Shown in pieces: positions 4,300-36,327 of a stretch of 64,000 bases of DNA; within the stretch, counting starts at the first letter, position 1; each line of letters opens with the position of its first letter. The position numbers and the translations under genes are program-made. The stretch comes from Alphaproteobacteria bacterium (GTDB taxonomy: Bacteria > Pseudomonadota > Alphaproteobacteria > Sphingomonadales > Kordiimonadaceae): contig SBGU01000032.1 in the NCBI GenBank assembly GCA_006226495.1, positions 1 to 64,000 on the forward strand, read 5' to 3'. The notes beneath the pieces are model-generated. The model saw only the letters and a list, made by a program, of their open reading frames with translations, did not search any database and was not told the origin of the DNA.

Positions 4300-4324
4300 C
4301 TGGCTTCTTTCCACGCGCGTTGAA

Positions 4325-4416: not shown

Positions 4417-4446
4417 TTACAGAAAAAACGGGATATTTTTCTGTAA
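4417..4446. terminator. AT-rich perfect inverted repeat after the dioxygenase gene
   Basis: Arms TTACAGAAAAA (4417-4427) and TTTTTCTGTAA (4436-4446) are perfectly complementary over 11 bases with an 8-base loop, one base past the dioxygenase stop on the minus strand. A terminator separating the dioxygenase from the cco promoter is the simplest reading; it could also be an operator about 100 bases upstream of the cco start. Confidence 0.5.
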
Positions 4447-4447
4447 C

Positions 4448-5263: not shown

Positions 5264-5330
5264 GCGGGCCTCCGGACACGATGCACTGGCCGGCCCATCG
5301 CCGGCGTTTCCTGATTGATATTTATGGCCT

Positions 5331-5369
5331 ATACTTACTTTTTGTAAGTACGCACAAAAAGGTAAGTAT
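5331..5369. promoter_or_regulatory. Repeated GTAAGTA operator between dioxygenase and HxlR genes
   Basis: Three copies of one heptamer occur in 39 bases: ATACTTAC (5331-5338, inverted), GTAAGTAC (5344-5351) and GTAAGTAT (5362-5369). Copies 1 and 2 form a 7-bp inverted repeat around TTTTT; copies 1 and 3 form an 8-bp inverted repeat; copies 2 and 3 are direct repeats 18 bases apart. The block lies just before the HxlR start at 5373, in the divergent promoter region, as expected for HxlR/MarR-like winged-helix operators. Confidence 0.65.
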
Positions 5370-5372
5370 AAA

Positions 5373-5779: not shown

Positions 5780-5784
5780 CGGAA

Positions 5785-5807
5785 GACGAGGCGGCTAGGT
5801 CCTCGTC
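5785..5807. terminator. Hairpin after HxlR gene
   Basis: Perfect 7-bp arms GACGAGG (5785-5791) and CCTCGTC (5801-5807) with a 9-base loop, six bases past the HxlR stop codon. No T-run follows, so it may be a weak terminator or a transcript-end stabiliser. Confidence 0.35.
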
Positions 5808-5990
5808 AGCTAGACACCCTAATCCAGTAAATCAACCGCTAGACGCGACTAAAAATACTGAAATCGCTGCCACCGGCGCATAGTCAACGCTTGGTACACA
5901 TTGGACGCAAATATTTCGCTCAAAAAGACACCTAATGAAGCAGCATCTCCTGATAGACGTACCTAAAGCACAACTGTGGAGTGATCGGAC

Positions 5991-6767: not shown

Positions 6768-6868
6768 CATCCAAATACTCACATCGCCCTACTTCACTGG
6801 CTTTCAGTAGGCGGTAATAGCCAACGGTAGTTTTCCCGAAAGATTCTGCCTGCGAGACTCGCATATTC

Positions 6869-6910
6869 CATCGGCCTCCCCCGCGTCATAACCACCCGCG
6901 GCACATGAGG
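6869..6910. repeat. Right copy of imperfect direct repeat (HxlR-like 3' remnant)
   Basis: This stretch matches the HxlR gene end at 5725-5768 and still reads as a relic of the same peptide (LPRV preserved) before a stop. No gene runs through it now. It lies 22 bases from the 3' end of the shortened siroheme-synthase gene, marking the right border of the lower-GC insert. Confidence 0.6.
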
Positions 6911-6931
6911 CAGAGAAAAAGATATCTCTCT

Positions 6932-7366
6932 TCAATTGATGGCAACAATGATGCCGCTGCTGCGCTGTTGTTCTGACACCTTACGGTCGGGTTCCGGCGA
7001 CGAGACGGGCGGCTCGCCTGCTTCCACCAGCGCTGCCGTCGCCAGATCCACGCCACCCGCGGCGATCACGGGCACGCCGCGGCCGAAGGCGGCGGCATAG
7101 ATGCGGTGGTTGAGCATGTCGTCGCCCGGCGTCAGGAGCACAAGGGCCGCGCCGTCGAGGTCGGTGGCGCGGAAGGCGCCGGCGGCATGGATGAGGGCGC
7201 CACTGGCCGCAAGGGCCTGAAGGCCCGGGGTCAGGCTGTCTGCGATCACATAAGGGATGGCGCCGGCTTTCAGGATCAGGCGCGCCTGCGCCTCGGCATC
7301 CGGCCCGCCACCCGAGACAATGGCCTTGCGGTCGCGGACATCGAGCATCAGGGGCAGATACTCCAT
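6932..7366 (-). CDS. Shortened siroheme synthase N-domain (precorrin-2 dehydrogenase-like)
   Basis: A 144-residue protein starting MEYLPLMLDVRDRKAIVSGG, closely like the NAD-binding part of CysG/Met8. The family makes sirohydrochlorin and siroheme for nitrite and sulfite reductases. The nucleotide loop is GGGPDAEAQARLILKAGA, where most relatives have GGGxVAxRK. After VPVIAAGGVDLATAALVEAGE the usual FIxPAxxxR and S-S-G-G-x-SP segments and the dimerisation helices are missing, and the end (EQQRSSGIIVAIN) matches nothing in the family. So the C-terminal third is lost or replaced. It lies 14 bases after the NasA-like gene. Function as an enzyme is doubtful. Confidence 0.72.
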   Translation of the reverse strand: MEYLPLMLDVRDRKAIVSGGGPDAEAQARLILKAGAIPYVIADSLTPGLQALAASGALIHAAGAFRATDLDGAALVLLTPGDDMLNHRIYAAAFGRGVPVIAAGGVDLATAALVEAGEPPVSSPEPDRKVSEQQRSSGIIVAIN

Positions 7367-7380
7367 GAACCGCGCTCCCG

Positions 7381-9513: not shown

Positions 9514-9803
9514 GAAGCCAGGACCTCGAAGCCCATGCCGGCCATATTGAGGAGGATAACCCCGTCCGACACATGCACATCGAAGAAGCGGCGCGTGTCC
9601 GCCATCTCCGTGGCCGGGCTCGGCTTGCGGTCGGCGGTCACCAGTTGGATGTCCCCCTGTCGCGCCTGGCTACTGTCCTCCACCGCATAGATCCTGTCGT
9701 CGGCGGTGCGATGCACGGCAATGTCGCCCATCGGGGTCGCCACCCGGCGCGAGCCGAGCACAGGAATATCACGCAGGTTAAAGACAACACGCCAGTCGCT
9801 CAT
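9510..9803 (-). CDS. nirD: NirD-like small subunit without Rieske ligands
   Basis: A 97-residue protein starting MSDWRVVFNLRDIPVLGSRR; GDIAVHRTADDRIYAVED is close to NirD, the Rieske-fold small subunit of NADH nitrite reductase. Where relatives have CPH...CPxH the protein reads EDSSQARQGDIQLVT, so no [2Fe-2S] cluster can bind. Some NirD proteins, such as that of E. coli, also lack ligands, so this alone does not mean decay. It is coupled by ATGA overlaps to genes on both sides. Confidence 0.78.
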   Translation of the reverse strand: MSDWRVVFNLRDIPVLGSRRVATPMGDIAVHRTADDRIYAVEDSSQARQGDIQLVTADRKPSPATEMADTRRFFDVHVSDGVILLNMAGMGFEVLAS

Positions 9804-10264
9804 GGGTACGTCTCCTTTTTTGCGGTGGAATTGTCGGATGCCGCGACATGCGGCGCCTTGAGGCTGTCGCCCGCCTGGCCCACGGGGGCGTGCGGGCCTG
9901 CGCGCAGGTGTTCGTCGGAGACATAGGTCCCTGGCCAGGCGCACAGGAGATAATAATTGAGGGCCGTGCGGCAGGTGGCACAGCCGCCGGGGCGCGACCA
10001 GCCAAGCGCGGCCTGAATGGCCACCACGGTCCTGAAACCGCGGTCGGCAATGGCCTTGCGCACGGCATCGTGGCCCAGGAGCGTGCAGCGGCACAGCGGC
10101 ATGTCGTCATCGGCGCCGGCATACATCTGGCCGGACTTCATATGGCAGGACTTCATCTGGCTGGCACCATACGCGGCGGCCATGGGCACAAAACGGTCGT
10201 CGGCCGACCGCGGCACTGCCGCACTCCCACCGGTGACAAAAACATCCTGCCTCATATACACCAC
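9800..10264 (-). CDS. BFD-type [2Fe-2S] protein, remnant or derivative of NirB middle region
   Basis: Residues 56-120 carry a BFD-like [2Fe-2S] pattern C58-x-C60 ... C95-x2-C98 and then TALNYYLLCAWPGTYVSDEHL, a stretch typical of NirB between its BFD domains and its sirohaem domain. The FAD/NADH domain that should precede it and the sirohaem catalytic domain that should follow are absent; the N-terminal 55 residues are unlike NirB and include a QMKSCHMKSGQM repeat. It overlaps nirD by ATGA. It may be a deletion relic of nirB, or a small ferredoxin serving the NasA-like enzyme, whose own BFD domain is missing. An ATG three codons in is an alternative start. Confidence 0.7.
   Translation of the reverse strand: MVYMRQDVFVTGGSAAVPRSADDRFVPMAAAYGASQMKSCHMKSGQMYAGADDDMPLCRCTLLGHDAVRKAIADRGFRTVVAIQAALGWSRPGGCATCRTALNYYLLCAWPGTYVSDEHLRAGPHAPVGQAGDSLKAPHVAASDNSTAKKETYP
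10124..10164. repeat. 15-bp in-frame tandem repeat in the BFD gene
   Basis: Units at 10124-10138, 10139-10153 and a partial third from 10154 (CATCTGGCCGGACTT, CATATGGCAGGACTT, CATCTGGCTGG). Fifteen bases equal five codons, so copy-number change keeps the frame and lengthens the QMKSC/HMKSG stretch. Confidence 0.6.
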
Positions 10265-21218: not shown

Positions 21219-22094
21219 TCATGCCGGGCGCTCGGGCAGGGGGGCGGGCCTGTTTGCCGCAGGCGCCGCCACGGGGCGCCAGCCAGGGCGGCCGAACATA
21301 TGCAGGAACCGGTGCCATGGCCTTTCCGCCGCGCGCACGTCCGCCACCATTTTCAGCCATTCGTGAAAGGCGATCCTGACCGGGTTCAGGTGCCGGTGCG
21401 GGGTCGCAAGCCCGTACCGTGGCTGTTCGGTTTCCGGCATAAAGGTGCCAAACAGCTTGTCGAAGATGATCAGCACGCCGCCAAAATTCCGGTCAATATA
21501 TTGATAGTTGCAGGCATGGTGAACCCGGTGGTGCGATGGCGTGTTGAAAACCCGTTCAAGCGGCCCAAGCCTGCCGATCACCTCGGTATGCAGCCAGAAT
21601 TGGTAGAACAGGCTGAGGGCCAGAGTGCCCACGACCAGAAGCGGCGCATAACCAAGCCAGACCAGCGGCGCATAGAACAGGGTGTGGCCGGAAATTAGCC
21701 CGGTCCAGCCCAACCGGCCTGCTGATGTGAGGTTCATATGGTTCGACGAATGATGCACACTGTGGGTGGCCCAGAACCAGCGTATCTGGTGCGACAGACG
21801 GTGGTGCCAATAATAGGCAAACTCGACGCTGAGGAAAAACACCAGGCCGTCCAGCCAGCCCTTGATCTCCAGGGTCTGGATGCGGTGTTCATACACCCAG
21901 TAAAGCATGGCCAGCGCACCACCCGCGAGCCCGGCATCCAGAAGCCGCTTGATCAGGTTCACCCCCAGGGACGCCAGCGCTTCACGCCACGGATATTGGC
22001 GGCGGCGGTACAGTATCCAGCCGGCTTCCAATAGCATCGCCGACAGGATGATCAGCGGCAGCATTGTGCCGGTGGTGCGGATGGCCGTTTCCAT
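21219..22094 (-). CDS. Sterol desaturase / fatty acid hydroxylase family protein (first copy)
   Basis: A 291-residue integral membrane di-iron enzyme. The histidine boxes are HHRLSH, HSVHHSS and HRVHHACN, in the right order and spacing, between four membrane helices; the C-terminal tail is Pro/Ala-rich. The family hydroxylates or desaturates fatty acids, carotenoids or sterol-like lipids at the membrane. The substrate cannot be told. It lies between the Spy-like gene and the sigma factor on the same strand. A relative with the same boxes is at 45713-46594. Confidence 0.9.
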   Translation of the reverse strand: METAIRTTGTMLPLIILSAMLLEAGWILYRRRQYPWREALASLGVNLIKRLLDAGLAGGALAMLYWVYEHRIQTLEIKGWLDGLVFFLSVEFAYYWHHRLSHQIRWFWATHSVHHSSNHMNLTSAGRLGWTGLISGHTLFYAPLVWLGYAPLLVVGTLALSLFYQFWLHTEVIGRLGPLERVFNTPSHHRVHHACNYQYIDRNFGGVLIIFDKLFGTFMPETEQPRYGLATPHRHLNPVRIAFHEWLKMVADVRAAERPWHRFLHMFGRPGWRPVAAPAANRPAPLPERPA

Positions 22095-22781: not shown

Positions 22782-24182
22782 ATGGCCGCGCTCAGTTTTG
22801 TCTTTTTCCTCGTGGTGTTTGCCGCGATCGGCCTTTTGTCGACCCGGCGCGCACAAACGAGCGACAGCGATTACCTGCTGGCCGGCCAGTCGGTGCCGCC
22901 CGCCCTCGTGTCCCTTTCTGCGGCGGCGACCAAATACAGCGGTTACATGTTCATCGGCCTGATGGGCTATATCTACAGTTTCGGCCTGTCGGCCATCTGG
23001 CTGGGGGCCGGGTTCCTGTTCGGCGACCTGATTGTCTTCAGCTTCGTACACCGGCGCCTGCGCACGGCAGCGGCGGAAACCGGCGCGCTCAGTTTCGCGG
23101 ACCTGATCAGCCGCTGGCATGGTGGCGATTACCGGCTGCTTCGGCTGGTGATCGGGCTCGTGAACCTGATCTTCCTCTCGACCTATGCCGCGGCGCAACT
23201 GAACGCCGGCGGCAAGGCCCTGTTTGTGCTGTTCGGCTGGCCCTATGCGACCGGTGCCATGGTCGGCGCGGGGGTGATCCTGCTTTACTGTTTCAGCGGC
23301 GGGCTCAGGGCCTCGATCTGGACCGATGCCGGCCAGTCGGGCCTGATGATGCTGGCCATGGCGCTGTTACTGTTCGCCGCCATCAGCGCAAGCGGCGGCT
23401 GGAGCGCTTTCACGGGTGCGCTGAACGGGGTTTCCGATACCTATATGGACCTCGGGTCCGAACGCTTTGGCGGCCTGGGCGCGGCGGCGCTGTTTGCGGT
23501 CGGCTGGCTGTTCAACGGCATCGGTGTCACCGGCCAGCCGCAGGTGATGGTGCGTTTCATGGCGCTGGACCGGCCGGAACATACCTTCCGCGCGGGCCTC
23601 TGGTATTTTGGCTGGAGCGGGCTTTTCCTCATACTGACCTTCATGGTCGGGCTGGCGACCCGCCTTTTCATTCCCGATGCGGCGGGGTTCGATGCTGAAC
23701 TGGCGCTGCCGACCCTTGCCCAGGGCCTGCTGCCGGGCGTTGGGGTCGGCATCATTGTGGGCGGTGTGTTCGCAGCGTCCATGTCGACCGCCGACAGCCA
23801 GATCCTGAGCTGTGCCGCGGTGCTGAGCCAGGATTTCAAGCTGGATTTCGGCCGGCGCAGCAAACAGATCGCCACCCTGTTGGTGGCCATCAGCGCACTT
23901 CTGATCGCGGTCTTTGCATCCGCCAGCGTGTTCACCCTCGTAATCGTCGCCTGGTCGGCGCTGGCGGCATCCTTGGGGCCCCTTGTCATCATCCAGGCGC
24001 TTGGGCGCAGGCCGCAGCAGGCCACCATGCTGGTGATGATGGCAACAGGGCTTGTCGTTGCCCTTGGCTGGCGCGCGGCAGGATTGGGGGCGCGGGTTTA
24101 CGAAGGCCTGCCCGGCATCCTGTCGGCGCTCCTCGTCTATCTGCTACTGGACCCGGTCATCCGCCGGCTGGGCAGGAACTGA
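22782..24182 (+). CDS. Sodium:solute symporter (SSS family, PutP-like)
   Basis: A 466-residue inner-membrane transporter with about 13 helices. Family features are the early DYLLAGQSVPPALVSLSAAATKYSGYMFIG segment, QLNAGGKALF and the helix with GIIVGGVFAASMSTADSQIL, where Ser residues help bind sodium. It is closest in pattern to sodium/proline symporters, but the solute is not proved. The ATG at 22782 follows an AGGGGGAT ribosome site; upstream frame extension is not supported. It is convergent with the SDR gene, with only 6 bases between them. Confidence 0.9.
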   Translation: MAALSFVFFLVVFAAIGLLSTRRAQTSDSDYLLAGQSVPPALVSLSAAATKYSGYMFIGLMGYIYSFGLSAIWLGAGFLFGDLIVFSFVHRRLRTAAAETGALSFADLISRWHGGDYRLLRLVIGLVNLIFLSTYAAAQLNAGGKALFVLFGWPYATGAMVGAGVILLYCFSGGLRASIWTDAGQSGLMMLAMALLLFAAISASGGWSAFTGALNGVSDTYMDLGSERFGGLGAAALFAVGWLFNGIGVTGQPQVMVRFMALDRPEHTFRAGLWYFGWSGLFLILTFMVGLATRLFIPDAAGFDAELALPTLAQGLLPGVGVGIIVGGVFAASMSTADSQILSCAAVLSQDFKLDFGRRSKQIATLLVAISALLIAVFASASVFTLVIVAWSALAASLGPLVIIQALGRRPQQATMLVMMATGLVVALGWRAAGLGARVYEGLPGILSALLVYLLLDPVIRRLGRN

Positions 24183-24188
24183 CCTGCC

Positions 24189-25244
24189 CTAGATTTTCTG
24201 GCCGGATGCCAGACACCAGTCGATGCTGCGGCGCATGCCTTCCCGAAGGTCGCAGATTGGCCGGAACCCGAGCTCGCGTTTGGCCTTGCTGATATCGCAG
24301 GCAATGGTCTTGTTCATTTCCGACAGGACGTGGATCTTCTGCTGGTAGAGGCCGGTTGCCTGCAGGATCGCGTCGGCAAGCTGGGCGAAATCGCCAATGA
24401 TCGCGGGCGCATGCAGGTTCTTGTCGGCCACCTGCATGCCGAAATCTTCCTTCAGTACCGCTTTGACCGTGTCGATTATTTCGACCATCGGATAGGGGCG
24501 TTCGTCCGCCAGCCAATAGGTTTCACCCTTGGCTTTTTCACTCAGGCAGGCCAGCAGGATGCCCTGTGCCAGGCTGTCGACATACCCCATGGAACGCTGG
24601 TTCAGCCCCGCGCCCAAAATTGGGAAACGACCGGCTTTGACCATGCGGAAAAAGTCGGTCTGGCGCGGCGGCTGGCCGGGGCCATAGAACCAGGGCGCCC
24701 GGATGATGGTGATACCGGGATAACCGGTGGTTTCCATCGCGGCCCGAAGCAACAGTTCCATGTTCATCTTCGACTTGCCATAGCCCATGTAGGGATTGAA
24801 GGGCGAGTCTTCATCGAACCGGTGTTCGGGTGCCGGGTTGCAGCCGATTGGTGAGTTAGAGGATACCACCAGCATGCGCCCAACCTTGGCGGTGGTTGCC
24901 GCCAGCAGCAGGTTTTTGGTGCCGCCTTCGTTGACCGCGAAAAAGTCCTTCGTGAACAGGGACGGGTGAATGAGGCCGGCGGTGTGGATCACACAGGCAC
25001 CTTCGCCGTCCTGCATCAGCTTGATCAGGCTGTCGCTGTCGCGCACATCGCCTTCGACGATCTCGACCCCCATGGCCTTCAGCCTGGAGGCGTCTTCGCC
25101 CGGGAACACCAGCGCCCGCACCCGCGCGCCCTTGACGCCCGCGACATCGCTGACCCCTTCCAGGCCTTCCGTGAGCGCAAGCGCGATGCGGCGGCCAAGC
25201 CAGCCGGTGGCCCCTGTCAGGATATAAAGCGGATAGCTGGTCAT
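24189..25244 (-). CDS. NAD-dependent epimerase/dehydratase (extended SDR)
   Basis: A 351-residue extended short-chain dehydrogenase/reductase. The nucleotide motif is TGATGWLG near the N-terminus, the active-site Ser lies in LVVSSNSPIG and the YxxxK pair in YGKSKMNME. The C-terminal half is the substrate domain. It is the last gene of the minus-strand cluster from 31609, after the UbiA-family gene (9 bases). In a polyprenyl-phosphate pentose pathway it could be the reductase that follows sugar oxidation, or could act on a nucleotide sugar. It is not close to any sugar-epimerase subtype that I can name. Confidence 0.85.
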   Translation of the reverse strand: MTSYPLYILTGATGWLGRRIALALTEGLEGVSDVAGVKGARVRALVFPGEDASRLKAMGVEIVEGDVRDSDSLIKLMQDGEGACVIHTAGLIHPSLFTKDFFAVNEGGTKNLLLAATTAKVGRMLVVSSNSPIGCNPAPEHRFDEDSPFNPYMGYGKSKMNMELLLRAAMETTGYPGITIIRAPWFYGPGQPPRQTDFFRMVKAGRFPILGAGLNQRSMGYVDSLAQGILLACLSEKAKGETYWLADERPYPMVEIIDTVKAVLKEDFGMQVADKNLHAPAIIGDFAQLADAILQATGLYQQKIHVLSEMNKTIACDISKAKRELGFRPICDLREGMRRSIDWCLASGQKI

Positions 25245-25253
25245 GGTCTGGCC

Positions 25254-26123
25254 TCAGTAATAAATGATGAAAACGAAGGTGATGAGATAGGCAAGCACCG
25301 AAAGCCTTATGGCATTGCTGGACAGGATCAGGGTCGAAGGATCGTCGCCCACACCTTCGACGACCATCAGCCGCATGTAGCTCATCAGCCCAAACAGCAC
25401 GATGGGTGCGGTGATCAGCACCTCCTCGCCAAAGCGCGCAACCGCGTAACCGGAGGTGCAGAAAATCAGGTAGGCCGCGAAGGTGGAGGTGGCCAGCAGC
25501 ATGTTCGACTGGTCAAGGAACGCGACCGTGTAGCTGGAGAGCGAGCGCCGCTGGTCGCCATTGTCCAGCCCCTGCACCAGGTCGCCCCGGCGTTTGCCGA
25601 CCGTGATCATCATGGCCAGAAGCCCGGTGCAAATAACAATCCAGGACGACAGTGTGACCCCGATGATGAAGGCACCGAACAGCAGCCGCAGGATGAACCC
25701 GCTGGAAACCAGCATCAGTTCGAGCACAGCAACATGCTTCAGGCCCAGCGAATAGGCGATGTTGAACAGGGCATAAAGAAGGATAACCACAAGCGCCGGC
25801 ACAGGCGCCTGCAACAGGAACAGGGATGCAGCGAGGGCGATCAGTCCCCCGACCAGCAGCATCATGCCATGCGATACCGGCACGGCACCCGAAGCCATGG
25901 GACGGTGCTTTTTCTTGTCATGCGCGCGGTCGGCCTCAAGATCCCGGAGGTCGTTGAGGATATAGACGCAGCTCGCCAGGATGCAGAAGGCAACCAGGCT
26001 CAGGACCAGGCTTTTCAGGTGGCTGATTTCCAGATTGCCGGAAAAGAAGGCCGGTGCCAGCACAAACCCGTTCTTCACCCATTGTTTCGGGCGCACCAGT
26101 TTGATGTATGGACCCAGTTTCAT
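25254..26123 (-). CDS. UbiA-family polyprenyltransferase, decaprenyl-phosphate phosphoribosyltransferase type
   Basis: A 289-residue membrane prenyltransferase with about eight helices. The first Asp-rich site reads NDLRDLEADRAHDKKKHRP, the variant known from the mycobacterial DPPR synthase (Rv3806c) rather than the NDxxDxxxD of quinone enzymes, and the second region ITVGKRRGDL...RRSLSSYT also fits that subgroup. DPPR synthase joins polyprenyl phosphate and phosphoribosyl pyrophosphate to make polyprenyl-phosphoribose 5-phosphate. Neighbours (DUF212 phosphatase, GMC oxidoreductase, SDRs, small transporter, GT-C protein) fit the later steps. A GGGG ribosome site precedes the ATG. Subfamily from motif memory; the true acceptor is inferred. 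Confidence 0.86.
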   Translation of the reverse strand: MKLGPYIKLVRPKQWVKNGFVLAPAFFSGNLEISHLKSLVLSLVAFCILASCVYILNDLRDLEADRAHDKKKHRPMASGAVPVSHGMMLLVGGLIALAASLFLLQAPVPALVVILLYALFNIAYSLGLKHVAVLELMLVSSGFILRLLFGAFIIGVTLSSWIVICTGLLAMMITVGKRRGDLVQGLDNGDQRRSLSSYTVAFLDQSNMLLATSTFAAYLIFCTSGYAVARFGEEVLITAPIVLFGLMSYMRLMVVEGVGDDPSTLILSSNAIRLSVLAYLITFVFIIYY

Positions 26124-26137
26124 TCAGTATCCCCCTT

Positions 26138-27610
26138 TTATGCCCCAGGCGTCCGGTCCAGGAAGGCCCGGGCGTTCCGAAGCGCAAGCGCCATCACCGT
26201 GGCCTGCGGGTTCACGCCCGGCGCCTCGGGTATCAGGCTTGCGTCCGCAATATACAGGTTTTCAAGCCCGTGCAGGCGGCCATATGAACTGGTGCCCGCC
26301 ACCTTGTCGTTTTCGCCGATACGCACACTGCTGAACAGGTGAATCGTCATCAGATTGCTTTTGCCGCGCGGCAGGCCGTTCGCCAATGCCTTTTCCACAT
26401 CGTCCATCGTGCGCCAAGCCGGCATACCGGCGATCGACGGCTGGATACGGCGCGCGCCGATATCGAACAGCGCGCTGCAAAGCTGCGTCAGGCCGAAAGC
26501 CAGATGGGTCCAGTCCTCGTCCGACAAGCCGTAGCGCGTGATCGGCGCATCCAGAAACGGCAGGCTGGAGACCTTGCCCGCGCCCGTGCCGCGCGCCATG
26601 GCATAATACATCACCATATTGCGCCAGGCCGGGGCCATATAGCCGCGCGCCGCCCAGTCTTCCGCCAGAAACATGCTGTAGGTCGGCAAGGTGAAGACCG
26701 AGCCACCGATGCGCACATCCGGCAGGAATTCCGTGATGGCATACAGCGGCAGCCGGTGGTTCGGGGCATCGACAGGCTCGTCAAATTCCGCCAGCGCCCG
26801 GATGGTCGGGTGCAGTTTGAACCCGGCCCCGACACCGCGGCCCAGCCCGCTTTTCTGCAGCAAGGCCGGCGTCTGGATGGCACCCCCCGAGACAAACACA
26901 TGGTTTGCCTGGATGCGTATACGTTTTGTGGCACCGTCCGGTGTGCGGCTGGACACCAGCACGGACGTCACCTTGCCGCTTTTGTATTCAAGTTTCAGCG
27001 CCCGCGTTTCCGGCAGGATACGGCCGCCGTTCTGCACAAATGACCGGAGAAGGGTCGTGGACATAGACTGTTTGGCGCCCGTGGGGCAGCCAAGCGAACA
27101 ATTGTTGGTGCCAACACAGTTTTTCTGCCCGCGCTCAAGCGCCAGCGCCCGCCAGTTTTTTGCCTCTGCCGCCTTCAGCAACAGGTCCGACGGCGGCCCA
27201 AGCGGTCCGGGTGTCGTGGAGGCGTTCACCAGCCTTGCGACATCGTCATACAGGCCTTCCATCACCGCGGGTGAGAAGGTGTCGATGCGGTAGCGTTCCG
27301 CCCAGACGTCAAGAAGCGCATGCGGCGCGCGCTGGAAAATGGCGCTGTTGATTTCGGTCGAGCCGCCGACACAGCGGCCTTCGGCATAGACGGTCGGCGG
27401 TTTGCCAAATGCCATGGTCATGCCGCCCGCGCGCCAGATGGACTGGAAACTGTCGGACAGGGTCTCGTTCGCCGCTTCAGCCGGCACATGCGGCCCTTCC
27501 TCGAGCATCAGTACATCGCGACCGTTTTCGGCCAGGGTATGGCCAACGGTGGCACCACCGGCGCCAGAGCCGATGATCAGAACATCACAGTCCATGGTAT
27601 CCATTGCCAT
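26138..27610 (-). CDS. GMC-family FAD oxidoreductase
   Basis: A 490-residue flavoprotein with the N-terminal FAD motif VLIIGSGAGGATVGHTLAENG, the ligand segment GRCVGGSTEINSAIFQR and the C-terminal GMC block NLYIADASLIPEAPGVNPQATVMAL, where the catalytic His/Asn pair seems partly replaced (GVNPQAT). It also has a Cys-rich bend (CVGTNNCSLGCPTG) seen in a subgroup of GMC enzymes. GMC enzymes oxidise alcohol groups of sugars, sterols or alcohols. In this cluster it could oxidise the sugar hydroxyl of a lipid-linked pentose, the job of DprE1 in mycobacteria. It follows the 122-residue gene by 15 bases. Confidence 0.88.
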   Translation of the reverse strand: MAMDTMDCDVLIIGSGAGGATVGHTLAENGRDVLMLEEGPHVPAEAANETLSDSFQSIWRAGGMTMAFGKPPTVYAEGRCVGGSTEINSAIFQRAPHALLDVWAERYRIDTFSPAVMEGLYDDVARLVNASTTPGPLGPPSDLLLKAAEAKNWRALALERGQKNCVGTNNCSLGCPTGAKQSMSTTLLRSFVQNGGRILPETRALKLEYKSGKVTSVLVSSRTPDGATKRIRIQANHVFVSGGAIQTPALLQKSGLGRGVGAGFKLHPTIRALAEFDEPVDAPNHRLPLYAITEFLPDVRIGGSVFTLPTYSMFLAEDWAARGYMAPAWRNMVMYYAMARGTGAGKVSSLPFLDAPITRYGLSDEDWTHLAFGLTQLCSALFDIGARRIQPSIAGMPAWRTMDDVEKALANGLPRGKSNLMTIHLFSSVRIGENDKVAGTSSYGRLHGLENLYIADASLIPEAPGVNPQATVMALALRNARAFLDRTPGA

Positions 27611-27625
27611 CCTGTGCCCCCTGCC

Positions 27626-27994
27626 CTAGGCCTTGTCCGCGAAGCGGGCACGGAACTGGCTGAGGCGGGTCTCCGGGTCGATCTGGTTCAGGGTTGCCAG
27701 CACCTGTGCGTTTTCAAAAAAACACAGGGAGACGAGCGAGCGGTAGAATCGTTCGACCATGTCGCCCCCCGGCATGCGCGCCACCAGCCTGAGCACACCA
27801 CGACCGAACAGCCGCATCAAAACATAGAGCATGATGGACAGGATGCGCAGCGGCAGCGCGATATAGAAAGGCTGCAACGCCAGTTGGCCCCGAATGAACC
27901 CCGCCGCCCGCGCGGCAATATGCTGCCGTTCCGTCGTAGGCACGACCGGATATTCGGGCATATAGGCCTGGGCTATGGTCAAATAGGGTTCCAT
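27626..27994 (-). CDS. Unknown small protein linked to the GMC oxidoreductase
   Basis: A 122-residue protein starting MEPYLTIAQAYMPEYPVVPT. It has one amphipathic or weakly membrane-like stretch (about 46-66, IALPLRILSIMLYVLMRLFG), then RMPGGDMVERFYRSLVSLCFFENAQ. I do not recognise a family. The ATG at 27994 lies just after the EamA/EmrE-like stop; the longer frame overlaps that gene and is unlikely. Since it lies directly before the GMC gene, it may be a partner subunit or membrane tether for the oxidoreductase, as small subunits do for some GMC dehydrogenases; this is inference. Confidence 0.65.
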   Translation of the reverse strand: MEPYLTIAQAYMPEYPVVPTTERQHIAARAAGFIRGQLALQPFYIALPLRILSIMLYVLMRLFGRGVLRLVARMPGGDMVERFYRSLVSLCFFENAQVLATLNQIDPETRLSQFRARFADKA

Positions 27995-28001
27995 AGCCGC
28001 C

Positions 28002-28373
28002 TTACGTACCGGCCCCGTCGGTACTGACGCCGTTTGCCAGCAGGAAGATGCCGGCCACCACCAGGACAAGGCCGCCGATCTGCATCATCGACAGCCGTTC
28101 GCCAAACGCGATCCAGGTGGTGACGGTCAGGAGCGTGAAGCCGCTGGCCGCCAAAATCGGATATCCCACATTCACCGGCATATGGTCCAAGGCCCGGGCA
28201 AACAGGAACACATTGATGGCATAAAAGCCGATGGCGCCGATGAAGAAAGGCGACATGACCTCGGTCAGGAAGCCGGCGTCGGGCGCCAGCGAACGGCGGC
28301 TGAGCTTCAGAAGCACATTGCCCACTGTCGAATTGACGGCAGCCAGCAGGACATAAAGGATGGCATGGTTCAT
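28002..28373 (-). CDS. Small EmrE/EamA-like four-helix transporter
   Basis: A 123-residue protein with four hydrophobic segments and the DMT-type pattern NVGYPILAASGFTLLTVTTWIAFGERLSMMQIGGLVLVVAG. Size and layout match SMR/EamA half-transporters such as ArnE/ArnF, which flip undecaprenyl-linked sugars. The N-terminal NSTVGNVLLKLSRR is also ArnE-like. Within a lipid-linked sugar cluster, a flippase for the polyprenyl-phosphate pentose is the best guess. A GGGAGG ribosome site precedes the ATG. Confidence 0.82.
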   Translation of the reverse strand: MNHAILYVLLAAVNSTVGNVLLKLSRRSLAPDAGFLTEVMSPFFIGAIGFYAINVFLFARALDHMPVNVGYPILAASGFTLLTVTTWIAFGERLSMMQIGGLVLVVAGIFLLANGVSTDGAGT

Positions 28374-28392
28374 TGGCTTCGACCTCCCACGA

Positions 28393-29427
28393 TCAAAGGA
28401 AGTATGGCACCAGGGTCAGGATGCGCTGTTTCATGGCCGACTGGTGCTTGGACCCCGACAGGCTGCCCGACAGGATCTGGTCGCGGTTCGCGCAGTACCA
28501 GTCGTAGGTGGCGGCAAACATCTCGTCGTTCGAATAGACCGGCTTGTAACCCAGCTTCGCCTGCGCGTCGGCAATATCGAAATACATGCTGCGGCCATAC
28601 ATCAGTGAATGGTACGGGCCGAGGGGCGACAGACCAATGGCGCTTGTCACCTTCATGCCGAATTCGGCCAGGCCCGCCGGTACCGATTTGACGCGGCTTT
28701 TGCTGCCGGCATGCTGCACCAGCTTTTCCAATACGTCGCGCATCGAGCCAAACCGGTCGGTGCCGATATTGAAGGTGCCGGCTTCTTCGGCTTCGCCCGC
28801 CGCAATGCAAGCGTCGGCCAGGTCGTCCGAATGCACAAACTGATAAATATTGTCGCCCTTGCCCAGGACCGGCACATTGCGACCCTGATAGATCCATTCG
28901 AACAGGATCTGGAAAATGCCCAGCCGGCCGGTGCCCAGCACCGTGCGTGGCCGGATGATCGAACAGCTCAGCCCGCGCTCGGCATAGTCATGGCACAGGT
29001 GTTCACCCGCCAGCTTGGCTTCACCATAGGCTTCGCGCGGGGCCGGGCTTGTGGCCGCCGTCACAGGGTTCTGTTCCGGCACACCGAACACAGCGCTCGA
29101 TGACGTATAAACAAACCGGCGCACGCCTTTTTCGGCGGCCTTTTCCAAGAGGTTGCGCGTGCCGTCGCGGTTGACGGACCAGAACAGGTCGCGGTCCTTC
29201 GCAACCGGCACCTGCGCCACGTTATGGTGGACAACATCAACACCTTCAAGCGCCTGTTCAACCGCCGCCACCTCGCGGATATCGCCTTGCAGAACGGTCA
29301 GGTTCGCATGCTCGAAGTGCGGGCGGTTGAGGTCGAAACAGACCACCTTTTCGCCGCGTTCGAGAAGTTTCCGGACCAGCACCTCGCCAAAAAAGCCTGC
29401 CCCGCCTGCCACCAGATATGTCGTCAC
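28393..29427 (-). CDS. NAD-dependent epimerase/dehydratase (second extended SDR)
   Basis: A 344-residue extended SDR with NAD motif GGAGFFGEVLVRKLLERG, Ser in YTSSSAVFG and YGEAK for YxxxK. Motif IIRPRTVLGTGRLGIFQILFEW resembles 3-beta-hydroxysteroid-dehydrogenase-like and nucleotide-sugar epimerases. The start codon is GTG at 29427. It differs from the SDR at 24189, so the cluster holds two distinct enzymes of this fold. The role is likely in making or modifying the lipid-linked or nucleotide sugar; substrate unknown. Confidence 0.86.
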   Translation of the reverse strand: MTTYLVAGGAGFFGEVLVRKLLERGEKVVCFDLNRPHFEHANLTVLQGDIREVAAVEQALEGVDVVHHNVAQVPVAKDRDLFWSVNRDGTRNLLEKAAEKGVRRFVYTSSSAVFGVPEQNPVTAATSPAPREAYGEAKLAGEHLCHDYAERGLSCSIIRPRTVLGTGRLGIFQILFEWIYQGRNVPVLGKGDNIYQFVHSDDLADACIAAGEAEEAGTFNIGTDRFGSMRDVLEKLVQHAGSKSRVKSVPAGLAEFGMKVTSAIGLSPLGPYHSLMYGRSMYFDIADAQAKLGYKPVYSNDEMFAATYDWYCANRDQILSGSLSGSKHQSAMKQRILTLVPYFL

Positions 29428-29564
29428 TGTACCACCATATAGCTAAATAGGACTGCGGCCCGGAAGCCGGGCCTCAGTCGGAATAAACATCGAATTTATC
29501 TGCCTTGTCAGGCCTGAAATGTGCCCTGCGCGGGGCCGATTTGACCATTATTCGTTCCAGACTG

Positions 29565-29990
29565 TCAAACGACAAAATTGAGACCGAGGCCGATCAGCAA
29601 GCCGAGCAGGTAACCCGCCGCCACCTCGATCGGTCGGTGCCCCAGTTTCGAGCGCAGGGCCTGCACGGCTTCATTGTCCGGGCAGGCGTCTTTGAGGGCC
29701 TTCACGGTTTCGCCGAACCTGTTGCGCAGGTCCATGGAATCGATGGCGACAATGGTCGCAAAGCCAAGCGCCACAGTCGTGGTGGTCGCGGTCCAGCCAT
29801 CCGCGAAACCAACCGTAAACAGGCAACTGCCGGCAATGGTATTGTGTGTGCTGGGGATGCCGCCCAGCCCGATTTCCTTGAAAGCACCGCCCTTGAAACG
29901 CAGGAAATTGAGTGCGAACTTCAGGGAACCTGCTGCCAGGTAGCCAATGATCGGTGCCAATATGTAAAGCTGCAGCCCCATCGCCATCAC
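29565..29990 (-). CDS. Divergent PAP2 family membrane protein (DUF212)
   Basis: A 141-residue membrane protein with the DUF212 signature GGIPSTHNT and the end motif KLGHRPIEVAAGYLLG, which stand for the SxxxH phosphatase patterns of the PAP2 family, plus about four helices. It overlaps the GT-C gene stop by four bases (ATGA type), so the two are coupled. In this context it could remove the 5-phosphate from polyprenyl-phosphoribose 5-phosphate, a job done by a PAP2 protein in mycobacteria. Relatives are widespread with no proven role, so this is inference. Confidence 0.85.
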   Translation of the reverse strand: MMAMGLQLYILAPIIGYLAAGSLKFALNFLRFKGGAFKEIGLGGIPSTHNTIAGSCLFTVGFADGWTATTTTVALGFATIVAIDSMDLRNRFGETVKALKDACPDNEAVQALRSKLGHRPIEVAAGYLLGLLIGLGLNFVV

Positions 29991-31609
29991 TTCCCGCTTT
30001 CGGCCTTGCGTGTGAACAGGAAATCGAACACCTCGTTCGTGGTGTCGACATTATAATGCGTGAACAGATACTGCACGACTTCCGAGCCCAACAATTCATG
30101 TTCGCGGTTCGAGGCGATGATTTCGTACCGGCCCGAAAGGATGTTGGCCTTGATGCGCTCTGTCGGCTCCATGATGCCGGCCTGCGCGAATTCATAAACC
30201 GCATCGCCGATGTCGTCCTCGGGCACCCGGTCGTTCGCCAGCAGGAAACCCTGCCGGCGCGCCAGCATGATCGGACCCTTGGTCTCGGCTACCAGCTTGG
30301 TCATGTAAGCGGCACTGACGGGTGCGATCTTGTGGAAAGGCGCATAGGTGCGCAGCATCAGGTTGGTGGGCCCGGCAATAACAAAGGCGATAATGATCAG
30401 CCGCCGCCATTCGACCGGACGGCTGCCCCACACCAGCGGCAGCGCCAGCGCAACCGGCACCAGATAGTTCGTATAGCTGCCATACCCGCCCTTGGCGTGC
30501 GCGAGCACTGCCAGCGGAACCGAGCCGATCAGCGCCATGAAAACGGGATTGCGCGCCAACTCCATGGCTGGGCGCCCTTTCACGAACAGAAGGCTGCCGG
30601 CGATCAAAAGCGCCAGCGGCATGTCGGTCAGCGCACCGCCCACAAAGGCGATACGCAGGCCGTGGCTTTTGCCCAGAAGCATGGTTTTCATCAGCCAGTG
30701 ATTGGTTTCGCCGTCCAGTATCCACAAGGGCACCACCACCAGAAGCGCAGCAACTGCGCCAAACAGCACAGCAGCCAACACCTGCCGCTGCGCCAGCAGG
30801 CACACGGCCAGGGTGACCAGCACAACTGCGGCATGGTGTTTGGCAAGGATCGCAAGCCCCATCGCCACGGCGGACAGCAGCAGGACCAGCATGTTACCGC
30901 GCGCCAGATATCGGCCGAGCAGCGCCACGCTGGCACAGGTGAAAAACACCAGATAGGCATCCGGGCGCACCGTGTAGGGATAGGCCGAAAAATAGATCGG
31001 CACGGTCAGCCACACCAGGAACAGGCTCAGCTTCTGGCCCTTGTCGTTATCGCCTTTATAGAGCGAGAGCAGGATACCACCGGTCGCGAGCGACAGCACA
31101 ACCGACGCGCCCCGGGCCCAGGCGAAGGAATGGTCGAACACATCGAACAGGAAACCGGAAACCGCTGACACCAGTGGCGGATACATATAGGCAATGGCGC
31201 TGCCGTTCACCGGATCGGGATAGCTTTGTGCTGGGTCGCGGAACAGGGCCAGGCCTGTCTGGATCAGGTTCGCTTCCATGGTGCCGATTTCATAATTGTA
31301 GAAGGCATATTTGGCAGCCGCAAAAACACCGATAGATGCCGCGCCACCCAGCGCCAGCAACAGGGCCTTGTCCATCAGCGGCAGGGGGGCTTCGGGCGCC
31401 TTCAGGCCAAAATGCAATTTGGGTGCGTTGAAGAAAAAGCGCGCGGCCCACATGACATAGGCCACACCGAAGAAGAAGACCGCAGCCAGTTCAGGCGCTG
31501 TCACGAATGACGGCCGGTCGGCAGCCCCAAGCAGACGCACCGGAAAATAGAGCGCAGTTATCGGCACAAGCAGAAACGCGCCCAAAAGAATAGCGTAACG
31601 AAACAGCAT
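29987..31609 (-). CDS. GT-C-like integral membrane glycosyltransferase
   Basis: A 540-residue protein with about 11 membrane helices. After the third helix a periplasmic loop begins YNYEIGTMEANLIQTG, with the acidic residue expected for GT-C transferases, and SAIAYMYPPLVSAVSGFLF resembles PMT/ArnT-type proteins; the C-terminal about 100 residues form a soluble domain. Such enzymes move a sugar from polyprenyl phosphate to an acceptor at the periplasmic side. The start MLFRYAILLGAF at 31609 has a GGGGGAC ribosome site; the longer frame is not needed. It heads the eight-gene cluster. The donor could be the pentose lipid made by the other genes; acceptor unknown. Confidence 0.8.
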   Translation of the reverse strand: MLFRYAILLGAFLLVPITALYFPVRLLGAADRPSFVTAPELAAVFFFGVAYVMWAARFFFNAPKLHFGLKAPEAPLPLMDKALLLALGGAASIGVFAAAKYAFYNYEIGTMEANLIQTGLALFRDPAQSYPDPVNGSAIAYMYPPLVSAVSGFLFDVFDHSFAWARGASVVLSLATGGILLSLYKGDNDKGQKLSLFLVWLTVPIYFSAYPYTVRPDAYLVFFTCASVALLGRYLARGNMLVLLLSAVAMGLAILAKHHAAVVLVTLAVCLLAQRQVLAAVLFGAVAALLVVVPLWILDGETNHWLMKTMLLGKSHGLRIAFVGGALTDMPLALLIAGSLLFVKGRPAMELARNPVFMALIGSVPLAVLAHAKGGYGSYTNYLVPVALALPLVWGSRPVEWRRLIIIAFVIAGPTNLMLRTYAPFHKIAPVSAAYMTKLVAETKGPIMLARRQGFLLANDRVPEDDIGDAVYEFAQAGIMEPTERIKANILSGRYEIIASNREHELLGSEVVQYLFTHYNVDTTNEVFDFLFTRKAESGK

Positions 31610-31889: not shown

Positions 31890-31979
31890 TGGCGGAGAGG
31901 ACGGGATTCGAACCCGCGAGGGGCGTTAGCCCCAACTCGCTTAGCAGGCGAGCGCCTTAAGCCACTCGGCCACCTCTCC
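31890..31979 (-). tRNA. tRNA-Ser (anticodon GCU)
   Basis: On the minus strand a 90-base class II tRNA with acceptor arms GGAGAGG (31979-31973) and CCTCTCC (31900-31894), G discriminator and encoded CCA (31892-31890). The anticodon stem CTCGC/GCGAG encloses CTGCTAA, so the anticodon is GCU (codons AGC/AGU). A long variable arm GTTGGGGCTAACGCCCC and the T loop GGTTCGAATCC are clear. Confidence 0.97.
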
Positions 31980-34062: not shown

Positions 34063-36327
34063 CTAGACAAAGTCGGCAGTGCTGATATCTCCGACATCGA
34101 TCCCGATCAGGGTAATGGAATTCCCACTGCCATCTTCAATCAGTACGTTACTGCCAAGTTGGGTAATTGTAAGATCACCAAAGTTCAACCCGGACGACGA
34201 GATGTCCAGGACATCTGCACCATCCTCGAAGTCGGTGATACTGTCATCGCCCCAGCCACTGTCAAAGACGAAGGTATCGCCGTTTGCACCACCGGCGAGG
34301 GTATCGTCGCCATTGCCGCCGTTCAGCGTGTCAGCGCCTGCGTCGCCGTTCAGCGCATCATTGCCGTCGGCTCCATAAATGAAGTCATCACCGATCCGGC
34401 CACGCAGATTCTGGCCATTGCCATCGCCAATCAGCGTATCGCCGTAGTTGCTGCCGCTGAAACGTTCGACGCTGGTCAGGGTATCGCCGGCGGCGTCGCC
34501 GCCGGTATGGATGCCGGTCGCCAGATTTACAGAAACAGCAGCGCCGGAATTGAGATAATCGACCCAGTCCGTGCCGTTGCCGCCATCCACGAGGTCAGCG
34601 CCGGACCCGGGCGCGAAAACATCGTCGCCGTCCCCGCCATACATTGTATCGGCGCCGCTTTCGCCATAAAGGCTGTCGTTGTTTTCGTTACCGTACATAA
34701 GATCGCCACCACTGCCGCCACGCAGGATATCGCCTCCCAAACCACCGACCAGTTTATCGTTGCCGTCGCCGCCGGAGAGGCTGTCATTGCCTTCGTCGCC
34801 ATTCAGGCCATCGTCGCCGCCGTCCCCGGCAATGGTATCGTTGCCATCACGCCCACGCAGGTTCTGGGCGTTGTCGTCTCCCGTCAGCGTGTCATTGTAA
34901 TTGCTTCCAAGGATGCGCTCTACGCTCGTCAGGGTATCGCCTGCGGCATCACCGCCGGTATGGATACCGGTCGCCATGTTTACGGAAACAGCAGCGCCGG
35001 AATTGAGATAATCGACCGTATCTGTTCCATCGCCGCCATCAAGGACATCGGCACCGGCACCGCCGGTCATCTCATCGTCGCCGTTACCGCCAAAGATAGT
35101 GTCGTCCCCGGCCTCACTATGCAGGAAATCATCGCCATCGCCGCCAGCCAACAGGTCGCCGCCATAGCCGCCGCGCAGCGTATCATTGCCGCCGCCGCCC
35201 GACAGGGTATCTGCACCGTCCCAGCCGTAGAATTCGTTGGCATTCGCATCACCTGTCAAGCTGTCGGCATAATTGGAGCCATAAAGGCCCTCTATACTGA
35301 TCAGCGTATCGCCGATTGCTTCTCCTGCTGTACCGGCGCCGGTGGCCAGGCTGACTGTCACTCCAGCCGTTGCACCATAATAGCTGGCGCGATCGGTCCC
35401 GGCGCCACCGTCAAGCGTGTCGGCCCCGGCACCCCCCACAAGGGTATCGCGGTCGTTATCGCCAAACATGATATCGTTATCGTCGCCACCGACCAGGGAG
35501 TCGGTGCCATCACCGCCATATAGCGTGTCGTTGCCATCGCCTCCTGAAAGCGTATCGGCACCTATGCCGCCCTCAAGGAGGTCGTCACCAGTCAAGCCAT
35601 AGATTGCGTCGGCAGAGCCAGACCCGATTATGGTCTCGGAGCGGTAGCTTCCGTCAATATGATCAATATCTGTCATCAGTACGGATGAAAAGTCCGTCGT
35701 ATGGCCCAAGTTCAAAGAGAGATCACCCGTCAGCACAACAACCCCTGCATGCCCATTCCCGGATATCTCGTCGATATTGCTGAACTGGAGTATGCTAATT
35801 TCAGTATTATTGTCCGCGGCCAATATGCGGTTTACCCCCGCACCACCGTCGAAGATGTCACGTTCGTCGTCATCTTCCATCAGGAAGATATCGTTACCGT
35901 CACCGCCTAAAAGCGTGTCGGCTCCGTGCCCGTTTATGAGGACGTCGTCACCATTTCCACCTGATATATAGTCACTGCCATAGCCGCCATTCAGGGTATC
36001 GGCGCCATCTCCACCGTACAGAACGTCATTGCCTGTACCGCCAGTGATCTGGTCGTCACCATTGTCGCCATAGAGTGTATTGTTGCCGTTATTGCCTGAA
36101 ATCTGGTCGCTGCCGTTGCCGCCATAGACGAGGTCGTTGCCCCAGCTACCCGTCAGGGTGTCGTCCCCGTTGCCGCCATAGAGCGTGTCGTTGCCGCTTT
36201 GGCCTAAAATCTGGTCATTGTCGTCGTTGCCATAAATGACATCGTCACCGTCAAGACCCTCGATAGTGTCCGCGTTACCTGTACCTAGTAGCGTGTCGTC
36301 GTTTGACGTGCCAGAAATGTATCCCAT
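34063..36327 (-). CDS. RTX protein made only of calcium-binding repeats
   Basis: A 754-residue acidic protein composed almost entirely of GGxGxDxLxG nonapeptides (parallel beta-roll calcium binding), in three repeat blocks separated by three copies of a 50-60 residue spacer (GAAVSVNLATGIHTGGDAAG type). The C-terminus ends in a DUF-like region (FDSGWGDDSITDFEDGADVLDIS, about residues 685-754), as in type I secretion substrates. No catalytic domain is present and no ABC/HlyD/TolC export genes are close by. It has no Sec signal. A GGGGG ribosome site precedes the ATG. It could be an adhesin, a surface coat or a biofilm matrix protein. The upstream 222 bases are AT-rich. Confidence 0.85.
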   Translation of the reverse strand: MGYISGTSNDDTLLGTGNADTIEGLDGDDVIYGNDDNDQILGQSGNDTLYGGNGDDTLTGSWGNDLVYGGNGSDQISGNNGNNTLYGDNGDDQITGGTGNDVLYGGDGADTLNGGYGSDYISGGNGDDVLINGHGADTLLGGDGNDIFLMEDDDERDIFDGGAGVNRILAADNNTEISILQFSNIDEISGNGHAGVVVLTGDLSLNLGHTTDFSSVLMTDIDHIDGSYRSETIIGSGSADAIYGLTGDDLLEGGIGADTLSGGDGNDTLYGGDGTDSLVGGDDNDIMFGDNDRDTLVGGAGADTLDGGAGTDRASYYGATAGVTVSLATGAGTAGEAIGDTLISIEGLYGSNYADSLTGDANANEFYGWDGADTLSGGGGNDTLRGGYGGDLLAGGDGDDFLHSEAGDDTIFGGNGDDEMTGGAGADVLDGGDGTDTVDYLNSGAAVSVNMATGIHTGGDAAGDTLTSVERILGSNYNDTLTGDDNAQNLRGRDGNDTIAGDGGDDGLNGDEGNDSLSGGDGNDKLVGGLGGDILRGGSGGDLMYGNENNDSLYGESGADTMYGGDGDDVFAPGSGADLVDGGNGTDWVDYLNSGAAVSVNLATGIHTGGDAAGDTLTSVERFSGSNYGDTLIGDGNGQNLRGRIGDDFIYGADGNDALNGDAGADTLNGGNGDDTLAGGANGDTFVFDSGWGDDSITDFEDGADVLDISSSGLNFGDLTITQLGSNVLIEDGSGNSITLIGIDVGDISTADFV
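34396..35400. repeat. Three long repeats within the RTX gene
   Basis: Copies at about 34396-34570, 34849-35020 and 35221-35400 encode the same spacer module. The first two are nearly identical in protein (YLNSGAAVSVN-[L/M]-ATGIHTG) and close in DNA; the third is diverged (ATAGVTVSLATGAGTAGEAIG). The layout points to internal duplication, and unequal recombination could change the length of the gene. Confidence 0.7.

Follow-up and report, generated by a model that had tools for sequence, protein, structure and literature searches.

Which enzymes alter a lipid-linked ribose when the gene run that would handle it holds no DprE1? The question is raised by eight genes in a 64,000-nucleotide stretch of DNA, here called the window, which comprises positions 1 to 64,000 of contig SBGU01000032.1 (assembly GCA_006226495.1) from an alphaproteobacterium of the family Kordiimonadaceae. 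The list of open reading frames (ORFs) confirms all eight on the minus strand, at 24189-31609. In gene order they encode a GT-C-like glycosyltransferase, a DUF212 divergent PAP2 protein, an extended short-chain dehydrogenase/reductase (SDR1), a small multidrug resistance (SMR) type transporter, a small helical protein, a glucose-methanol-choline (GMC) flavoprotein, a UbiA-superfamily enzyme, and a second extended SDR (SDR2), with intergenic gaps of -4, 137, 19, 7, 15, 14, and 9 bases. The GT-C and DUF212 genes overlap, the last six genes are closely packed, and the 137-base gap may separate two transcription units. It is fairly probable that the cluster encodes a polyprenyl-phosphate pentofuranose pathway in which the GMC protein oxidizes, and SDR1 reduces, lipid-linked ribose. 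We infer the individual reactions, their order, the sugar made, and its acceptor from the gene families and from their company in other genomes.

The pathway would begin with the UbiA protein (25254..26123, minus strand, 289 amino acids (aa)), a putative polyprenyl-phosphate phosphoribosyltransferase that would move 5-phosphoribose from phosphoribosyl pyrophosphate (PRPP) onto polyprenyl phosphate. Sequence comparisons support its assignment to the decaprenyl-phosphoryl-5-phosphoribose synthase (DPPRS) type, as a preliminary description of the locus had proposed. Besides a UbiA Pfam score of 63.9 bits, the protein reaches 205.3 bits with the NCBIfam model for DPPRS and 153.7 bits with that for the HAD-UbiA type; the haem O synthase model gives 37.1 and that for 4-hydroxybenzoate octaprenyltransferase 27.9. 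All quinone, haem O, and other prenyltransferase models score at most 59.2 bits, which rules out a quinone or haem O type. Its strong relatives in the PDB are two DPPRS entries, 8j8j (E 5.2e-35) and 8j8k. In an alignment read by eye, seven of the nine Rv3806c PRPP/Mg residues named in an excerpt of PMC10994848 are identical (K28, N73, D77, K87, R90, Y138, and K143), and the other two are conservatively replaced (Q135 by N121 and K208 by R193). A search of the source genome with this UbiA returns only itself at E<=0.001.

The 5-phosphate would then be taken off by the DUF212 protein (29565..29990, minus strand, 141 aa; PF02681, 71 bits, cut-off 26.5), a candidate 5-phosphate phosphatase. A divergent PAP2 gene likewise follows a DPPRS gene in Marivivens. 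In most other members of the family described below, a HAD domain would take this role. On pNGR234a, UbiA itself carries an N-terminal HAD domain that fills the slot (PRK08238, 617.5 bits), most other members have a HAD-UbiA fusion by similarity to the pNGR234a protein, and an Ensifer locus (L103; compared loci carry L numbers) has a HAD gene adjoining UbiA. For one such fusion, ORF15 of Citrobacter, formation of lipid-P-ribose from PRPP has been demonstrated, according to an excerpt of PMC11127046. Haloarchaeal UbiA/SDR1 loci have a PHP-domain gene in the phosphatase slot. Three haloarchaeal plasmids (L160, L161, and L162) combine UbiA and the PHP-domain gene with genes for an SDR1 relative, a GT-C protein, and a flippase-like protein, likely an archaeal pentofuranose set with another phosphatase.

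The following step is assigned to the GMC flavoprotein (26138..27610, minus strand, 490 aa; GMC_oxred_N 135.6 bits, GMC_oxred_C 54.5 bits), a candidate oxidase or dehydrogenase that the small helical protein may tether to the membrane and that would oxidize a hydroxyl on the ring of lipid-linked ribose, at C2 or C3. The glycines of the FAD-binding GxGxxG motif are present, and H424 and N467, which we take to be the catalytic His and His/Asn of GMC enzymes, are kept in all 26 aligned rows; cluster members account for 24 of these. The structural model (pLDDT 88.0) finds fructose dehydrogenase 8jej as its best Foldseek match (E 2.5e-31), and pyranose 2-oxidase and hydroxymethylfurfural (HMF) oxidase are also among the nearest folds. 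Sugar-oxidizing GMC enzymes are thereby among its closest structural matches, and both its fold and its H424/N467 pair are those to be expected in an active enzyme. No signal peptide is seen by eye.

The small protein (27626..27994, minus strand) most likely starts at 27994, giving 122 aa and correcting an earlier gene call. A homologue is detected by tblastn before the GMC gene in 21 of 24 loci with a GMC of at least 42% identity, although conservation is poor (16-28% to the window's protein in 20 aligned ORFs), and for the Ensifer/Geminicoccaceae group only position and alignment connect the corresponding ORF to it. Its AlphaFold2 model is all helix (mean pLDDT 93.2). No Pfam family scores above its cut-off, and the PDB yields neither a fold match at E<=0.001 nor a profile sequence match at E<=1; on these searches a known GMC small subunit is rejected. 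Its one moderately hydrophobic helix, seen in a Kyte-Doolittle scan, suggests that the protein may dock at the membrane; it is a candidate GMC partner or membrane-docking subunit.

SDR1 (28393..29427, minus strand, 344 aa, GTG start; Epimerase 149.4 bits), a candidate lipid-linked pentose reductase/epimerase, would reduce the ketone in the opposite geometry, and GMC and SDR1 together would do the job of mycobacterial DprE1/DprE2. SDR2 (24189..25244, minus strand, 351 aa; Epimerase 92.6 bits), a candidate further epimerase or reductase found in most but not all members, would make an additional change. Both keep their catalytic motif: the Tyr and Lys of the SDR1 YGEAK sequence (YxxxK) are invariant in 42 of 42 rows, and Y..[AS]K of SDR2 is kept in 26 of 26. 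The two form well-separated families in a tree. A hopanoid role, raised earlier as a reading that would speak against the pathway, is rejected; the best NCBIfam model for both is the hopanoid-associated HpnA, and the scores of 118.6 and 75.9 bits are under a third of its 367.65 cut-off. SDR1 seems the likelier GMC partner, because SDR2 is absent from nine loci and SDR1 from none, and because SDR1 relatives also stand beside DprE1-type flavoenzymes (in L044 and on contig C280 of Bradyrhizobium algeriense, 4229-6973). SDR1-like plasmid matches at 34-36% (E<=1e-40) lie 0.25-3.4 kb from a UbiA match in five of five cases. A phage-labelled, unverified gut scaffold (L164, MT837543.1, 844 to ~3700) holds UbiA, SMR, and SDR1-like genes together, possibly a mobile pentofuranose cassette.

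The finished lipid-linked sugar would be flipped by the SMR/EamA small transporter (28002..28373, minus strand, 123 aa), a candidate flippase, and passed by the GT-C-like protein (29987..31609, minus strand, 540 aa), a candidate pentosyltransferase, to a periplasmic acceptor that would differ between organisms. The transporter belongs to the SMR/EamA superfamily (Multi_Drug_Res 37.5 bits, cut-off 23.7); membership of ArnE/F is ruled out by scores far below the NCBIfam cut-offs (ArnF 23.8 of 99, ArnE 22.4 of 92). The GT-C-like protein scores 35.4 bits against PMT_2 (cut-off 26.1), has six hydrophobic segments in a simple Kyte-Doolittle scan, has one match in its own genome at E<=0.001, and has none among PDB sequences at E<=1. 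The large membrane protein near the core varies: it is of the PMT_2 type in the window, in L082 (below cut-off), and in L103; the proteins of pNGR234a, L101, and L102 are unclassified and have 7-10 hydrophobic segments. Homology among these GT-C-like proteins is seen only for L082/L103 and between the two genes of L071. Such variety accords with a donor module that stays constant while transferases and acceptors change.

Do these genes belong together? A tblastn search of 72,556 plasmids, run separately with GMC, SDR1, and SDR2, gave the same nine rhizobial records as best matches to all three queries. The GMC search gave 12 records, the nine at 48.8-49.6% identity and three at 30-32%; for the nine, identities are 54.2-55.7% with SDR1 and 55.0-58.5% with SDR2. 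On pNGR234a the order is SDR1-SMR-small-GMC, followed by a convergent 'hypothetical'-SDR2-(HAD-UbiA) run, genes that are presumably y4nG to y4nM. Similarly, a scan of genome contigs with the GMC alignment, in which the best 80 of 95 matches were kept and gave 78 loci, places SDR1 in 24 of 24 loci with a GMC of at least 42% identity and in five of five at 36-38%, whereas in the other 49 loci nothing matches SDR1 or SDR2 at an E-value below 1e-19. On the tree, the GMCs with a neighboring SDR1 make up a single clade of 34 among 84 rows (near copies included; L062, L067, L068, L069, and L070 are outside the tree), with support 100/99. The label for an SDR1 neighbor changes once on the tree, against a mean of 26.6 in shuffled labels, and none of 500 shuffles is as low. 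Members include rhizobial symbiosis plasmids such as pNGR234a, Bradyrhizobium, Palleronia, and Polynucleobacter.

Among the 34 clade loci, SDR1 is found in 34 (cut by the contig end in L105), SDR2 in 25, SMR in 24, UbiA in 25, and DUF212 in one, the window itself; L098, the same record as L069, additionally holds UbiA fragments. Three of the nine loci without SDR2 are cut by contig ends (L090, L100, and L105). What is conserved is a core of SDR1-small-GMC plus UbiA, to which SMR and SDR2 are often added. The expectation that all eight genes would stay together in other genomes is borne out for this core; the complete eight-gene set was found in the window alone. No GMC was found in 18 congeners of the source organism, several of them incomplete, beyond one 31% match over 272 residues, and viral contigs searched with a single GMC query gave no relative. 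In Rhizobium gallicum M101 (L068, NZ_CP092345.1, 10001-11403) the GMC match is in two pieces with two coding sequences annotated beneath, and in Rhizobium altiplani (L092, 10585-13040) SDR2 is shortened to 151 aa and a neighboring membrane gene lies in two ORFs, a sign of decay in L092.

The preliminary description proposed that the GMC enzyme would stand in for DprE1. Beside UbiA, this claim holds in the stretches compared: DprE1 is found in none of the 34 GMC stretches and GMC in none of 19 DprE1 stretches, the first count covering the fetched stretch, at most ~9-12 kb per side. Neighborhoods were fetched for 20 of 43 DPPRS-type matches. Outside the clade, 31 UbiA loci divide into 19 with DprE1, six that have an SDR1-like gene but lack both DprE1 and GMC, and six with none of these (L034, L045, L051, L052, L078, and L080). 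DprE1 is accompanied by a DprE2-like gene at 18 UbiA loci (L035-L041, L043, L046-L050, L053, L076, L077, L079, and L081; L038 weak, 49 bits), and in L044 it stands with a distant SDR1 relative beside UbiA; L044, L076, L077, L079, and L081 are seeds of the DprE1 model. Around the window cluster, 22 kb contain no match to the DprE1 or DprE2 hidden Markov models, and blastp shows no significant similarity to DprE2. The window's genome (4.32 Mb in 60 contigs) has no DprE1 at 1e-20, giving partial FAD-domain matches only, at 26-28%.

Across whole genomes the replacement claim fails. A DprE1-like gene is present in eight of 24 carrier genomes and on none of three carrier plasmids, while a control plasmid with a NoeCHOP-type operon was detected; the search covered these 24 genomes and three plasmids, and the genomes of L088, L090, L092, L098, L104, L105, and L112 lie outside it. 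In B. algeriense the contig of L089 has two DprE1-like genes upstream of SDR1, at distances of 7.3 and 9.6 kb, just outside the counted stretch (the next 8 kb were read later). The nearer gene is split over two frames and is followed by a DprE2-like gene; the farther one runs on the other strand beside a distant SDR1 relative (30%, E 4e-43). On L200 (G484:C280) these DprE1-like, DprE2, and SDR1-relative genes fill 4229-10143, which puts them 7-12 kb ahead of the GMC cluster. One organism can carry both the GMC and the DprE1 route, an argument that the two differ in product or in when they are used.

These genomes count against the proposed pathway, and other observations point the same way. 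DprE2-like genes occur in four of the 34 clade loci; the one in L089 scores 349 bits, and those in L086, L091, and L092 are weak (22-39 bits). Two GMCs at 34-35% identity (L108 and L111) lack SDR1. Nine clade loci have no whole UbiA in the fetched stretch, of which L085, L090, L097, and L105 end at contig edges and L089, L092, L095, L098, and L106 have no such explanation; SMR is absent from ten. The window UbiA falls 1.7 bits short of the DPPRS cut-off of 207, and although L093 (215.8) and L086 (222.2) exceed it, L071 (187.0) does not and the Ensifer L103 protein is far below its cut-off (67.8 of 234). By sequence, no GT-C-like protein of another member is a homologue of the window GT-C (hhalign probability at most 25%). 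Finally, UbiA stands with an SDR1-like gene, and with neither DprE1 nor GMC, in six loci (L042 and L160-L164, of which L042 and L164 are short).

The proposed system works like two known pathways and matches the redox type of neither. It resembles the mycobacterial decaprenyl-phospho-arabinose pathway (Rv3806c, Rv3807c, DprE1, and DprE2) in its DPPRS-type start, phosphatase, redox pair, small flippase, and GT-C, but its oxidase is a GMC rather than a FAD_binding_4/ALO protein, its reductase candidate is an extended SDR, and its phosphatase is DUF212, whereas Rv3807c is a classical PAP2. UbiA loci with DprE1 and DprE2 share the first enzyme and an adjoining redox pair, and none has a GMC. The three-component pentofuranose systems of Citrobacter youngae O1/O2, as described in an excerpt of PMC11127046, likewise combine a PRPP-using UbiA, a phosphatase, an optional SDR epimerase, a flippase, and a GT-C. 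The window has genes for a polyprenyl-phosphoryl-phosphoribose synthase (PPPRS), flippase, and GT-C in one gene run, flippase and transferase being assigned by family only. However, the O2 system has one SDR, no flavoenzyme, and a MATE flippase, as compared with GMC plus small protein, two SDRs, and SMR in the window; the words 'GMC' and 'oxidoreductase' are absent from the main text of that paper. The main texts of open-license articles in PMC yielded no paper on the present cluster.

A third comparison is with NoeC(N)HOP, which arabinosylates Nod factors (excerpts of PMC5080398 and PMC2443382). The UbiA in the NoeC position of the IRBG74 operon is 31% identical to the window UbiA (E 1e-30), and both systems are used in symbiosis settings, but the genes in the NoeN, NoeH, NoeO, and NoeP positions, taken from the IRBG74 gene order, have no homologue in the window. 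With UbiA as the sole homologue, the gene set differs from the NoeC-type system, just as had been supposed. In the same operon (L077, 8861-9283) the gene in the NoeN position, identified by gene order only, is annotated as GtrA family; a flippase would match this annotation better than the phosphatase that an excerpt of PMC5080398 proposes.

The rhizobial copies also differ from NoeCHOP in their promoters, which look to be of the NifA/sigma54 type rather than nod boxes. NifA-site, sigma54, and nod-box motifs served in the scans. A search upstream of SDR1 for TGT-N10-ACA followed 35-130 bases on by a -24/-12 element finds the pair in 14 of 20 rhizobial loci, or ~9 distinct sequences when near copies are counted once (L061/L067/L090, L062/L070/L094, and L087/L088), and in none of 20 other loci; among these are the window, two UbiA loci that have no GMC, and, from the second GMC group, four Ensifer loci. 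The rhizobial loci lacking it are L068, L069, L091, L092, L095, and L107. Random sequences of the same first-order make-up give 0.00-0.10 pairs per locus, and two 49.9 kb stretches of pNGR234a and 11 UbiA control loci give none. In the nif region of pNGR234a the scan gave two sites and missed both nifH promoters, and is in this respect incomplete. Nine aligned upstream regions, chosen for carrying the motif, have invariant TGGCAC and TGC at a mean identity of 56%. Before the HAD-UbiA operons, TGT-N10-ACA lies ~300-315 bases upstream in seven of nine and the strict -24/-12 element in none; six of those seven have, by eye, a weaker such element, TGGCAC-N5-TTGAT, ~100 bases later.

From their upstream sequences, the rhizobial cluster copies look like NifA-sigma54 targets. 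A nod-box control found none near SDR1 in 21 loci, the single nod-box-like site being at 3578 of L061, just upstream of nodS; the pNGR234a copy lies ~7 kb from nodSU. In Sinorhizobium garamanticum (L066, 4920 and 5223-6693) a NifA-site/sigma54-type pair precedes HAD and phosphoribosyltransferase-family genes. An excerpt of a paper on NGR234 bacteroids does not name the cluster genes, that of PMC3732241 mentions neither y4n nor GMC, and those of PMC3538637 and PMC4999443 mention neither GMC nor prenyltransferase. In an excerpt of PMC6515984 one GMC gene, blr7491, is lowered in microoxia.

Which reading best accounts for the whole? The main rival, because SDR1 relatives occur without any flavoenzyme, is that SDR1, like ORF13, epimerizes C3 unaided and turns ribose into xylose on the lipid, with GMC and SDR2 making a second inversion or other change to give a doubly altered pentose. 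ORF13 of C. youngae O2, a GalE-like SDR, alone decides between Xylf and Ribf (excerpt of PMC11127046), and the six flavoenzyme-free loci noted above pair SDR1-like genes with UbiA. On the other hand, the nine GMC loci without SDR2 (for example L071, L109, and the Ensifer/Geminicoccaceae group) keep GMC and SDR1, and the flavoenzyme-free SDR1s fall outside both GMC-linked SDR1 groups in the tree, though on long branches. We regard this arrangement as rather unlikely, while giving it more weight than any other rival. GMC enzymes oxidize both ring and primary hydroxyls, and the fructose dehydrogenase, pyranose 2-oxidase, and HMF oxidase folds nearest the model would accord with a stably oxidized lipid sugar (a keto-pentose or a C5 aldehyde or acid), the SDRs acting elsewhere in the path; the constant pairing with SDR1 (34/34) better fits oxidation followed by reduction, and such a product is improbable.

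Lipid-linked arabinose for a Nod-factor-like acceptor, as in NoeCHOP, would explain the UbiA homology, the many rhizobial carriers, and the proximity of nodSU on pNGR234a. It is nonetheless very improbable in view of the lack of homology to the other Noe-position genes, the NifA-type promoters, and the lack of nod-box-like sites near SDR1. That the genes are neighbors by chance or serve unrelated paths, which the preliminary description had named as the outcome that would overturn it, can be given almost no credence: the absence of the GMC from the 18 congeners shows only that the set is sporadic, whereas the same nine plasmids emerge from three queries and the GMCs form one clade that no shuffle reproduces.

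For the preferred pathway, in which GMC oxidizes and SDR1 reduces lipid-linked ribose, xylose or lyxose appears as open as arabinose for the product, because the GalE-like SDR of C. youngae O2 makes xylofuranose (excerpt of PMC11127046). According to the same excerpt, lyxofuranose would need two inversions and appears in no solved carbohydrate structure. As a long shot, GMC, SDR1, and SDR2 might together invert C2 and C3 to give polyprenyl-phosphate-lyxofuranose and, under NifA control in rhizobia, a bacteroid pentofuranose glycan made only during nitrogen fixation; members without SDR2 would then make the singly inverted sugar.

The setting of the cluster suggests how it arrived. Upstream lie a tRNA-Ser(GCT) gene (31890..31979, minus strand, ARAGORN), a possible island edge, and, by eye, an M20-type peptidase gene. 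Among the 18 congeners, this tRNA is within ~1.2 kb of an M20-like gene in 12 of 13 loci examined, and in five of these the tRNA's far side, comparable over 0.35-1.3 kb, has nothing in common with the cluster side of the window past the tRNA edges; three further loci face the opposite way and are uninformative. By this comparison the cluster was probably gained beside the tRNA, although no second copy of the tRNA end, as expected of an island-end repeat, was found anywhere in the window, and integrases were not sought. At the other end, beyond the SDR2 stop, is a weak terminator-like hairpin (24170..24189, listed on the plus strand and without strand assignment) in a region where such hairpins are not enriched (10 found versus 8.0 expected). 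Nearby genes include one for a 754-aa protein with RTX-like glycine/aspartate repeats by eye (34063-36327, minus strand) and one for a FA_hydroxylase-family protein that weakly resembles the ornithine-lipid hydroxylase OlsE (21219-22094, minus strand; 67.5 bits, cut-off 475).

Taken together, the cluster points to a third way of altering lipid-linked ribose, next to the DprE1/DprE2 pair and the single-SDR ORF13 route, and it is a natural candidate in which to test for lyxofuranose synthesis. It also gives a testable function to a hitherto unassigned gene block of pNGR234a and of rhizobial plasmids and genomes related to it, while the time at which the rhizobial cluster would be used is predicted by the NifA-type promoters.

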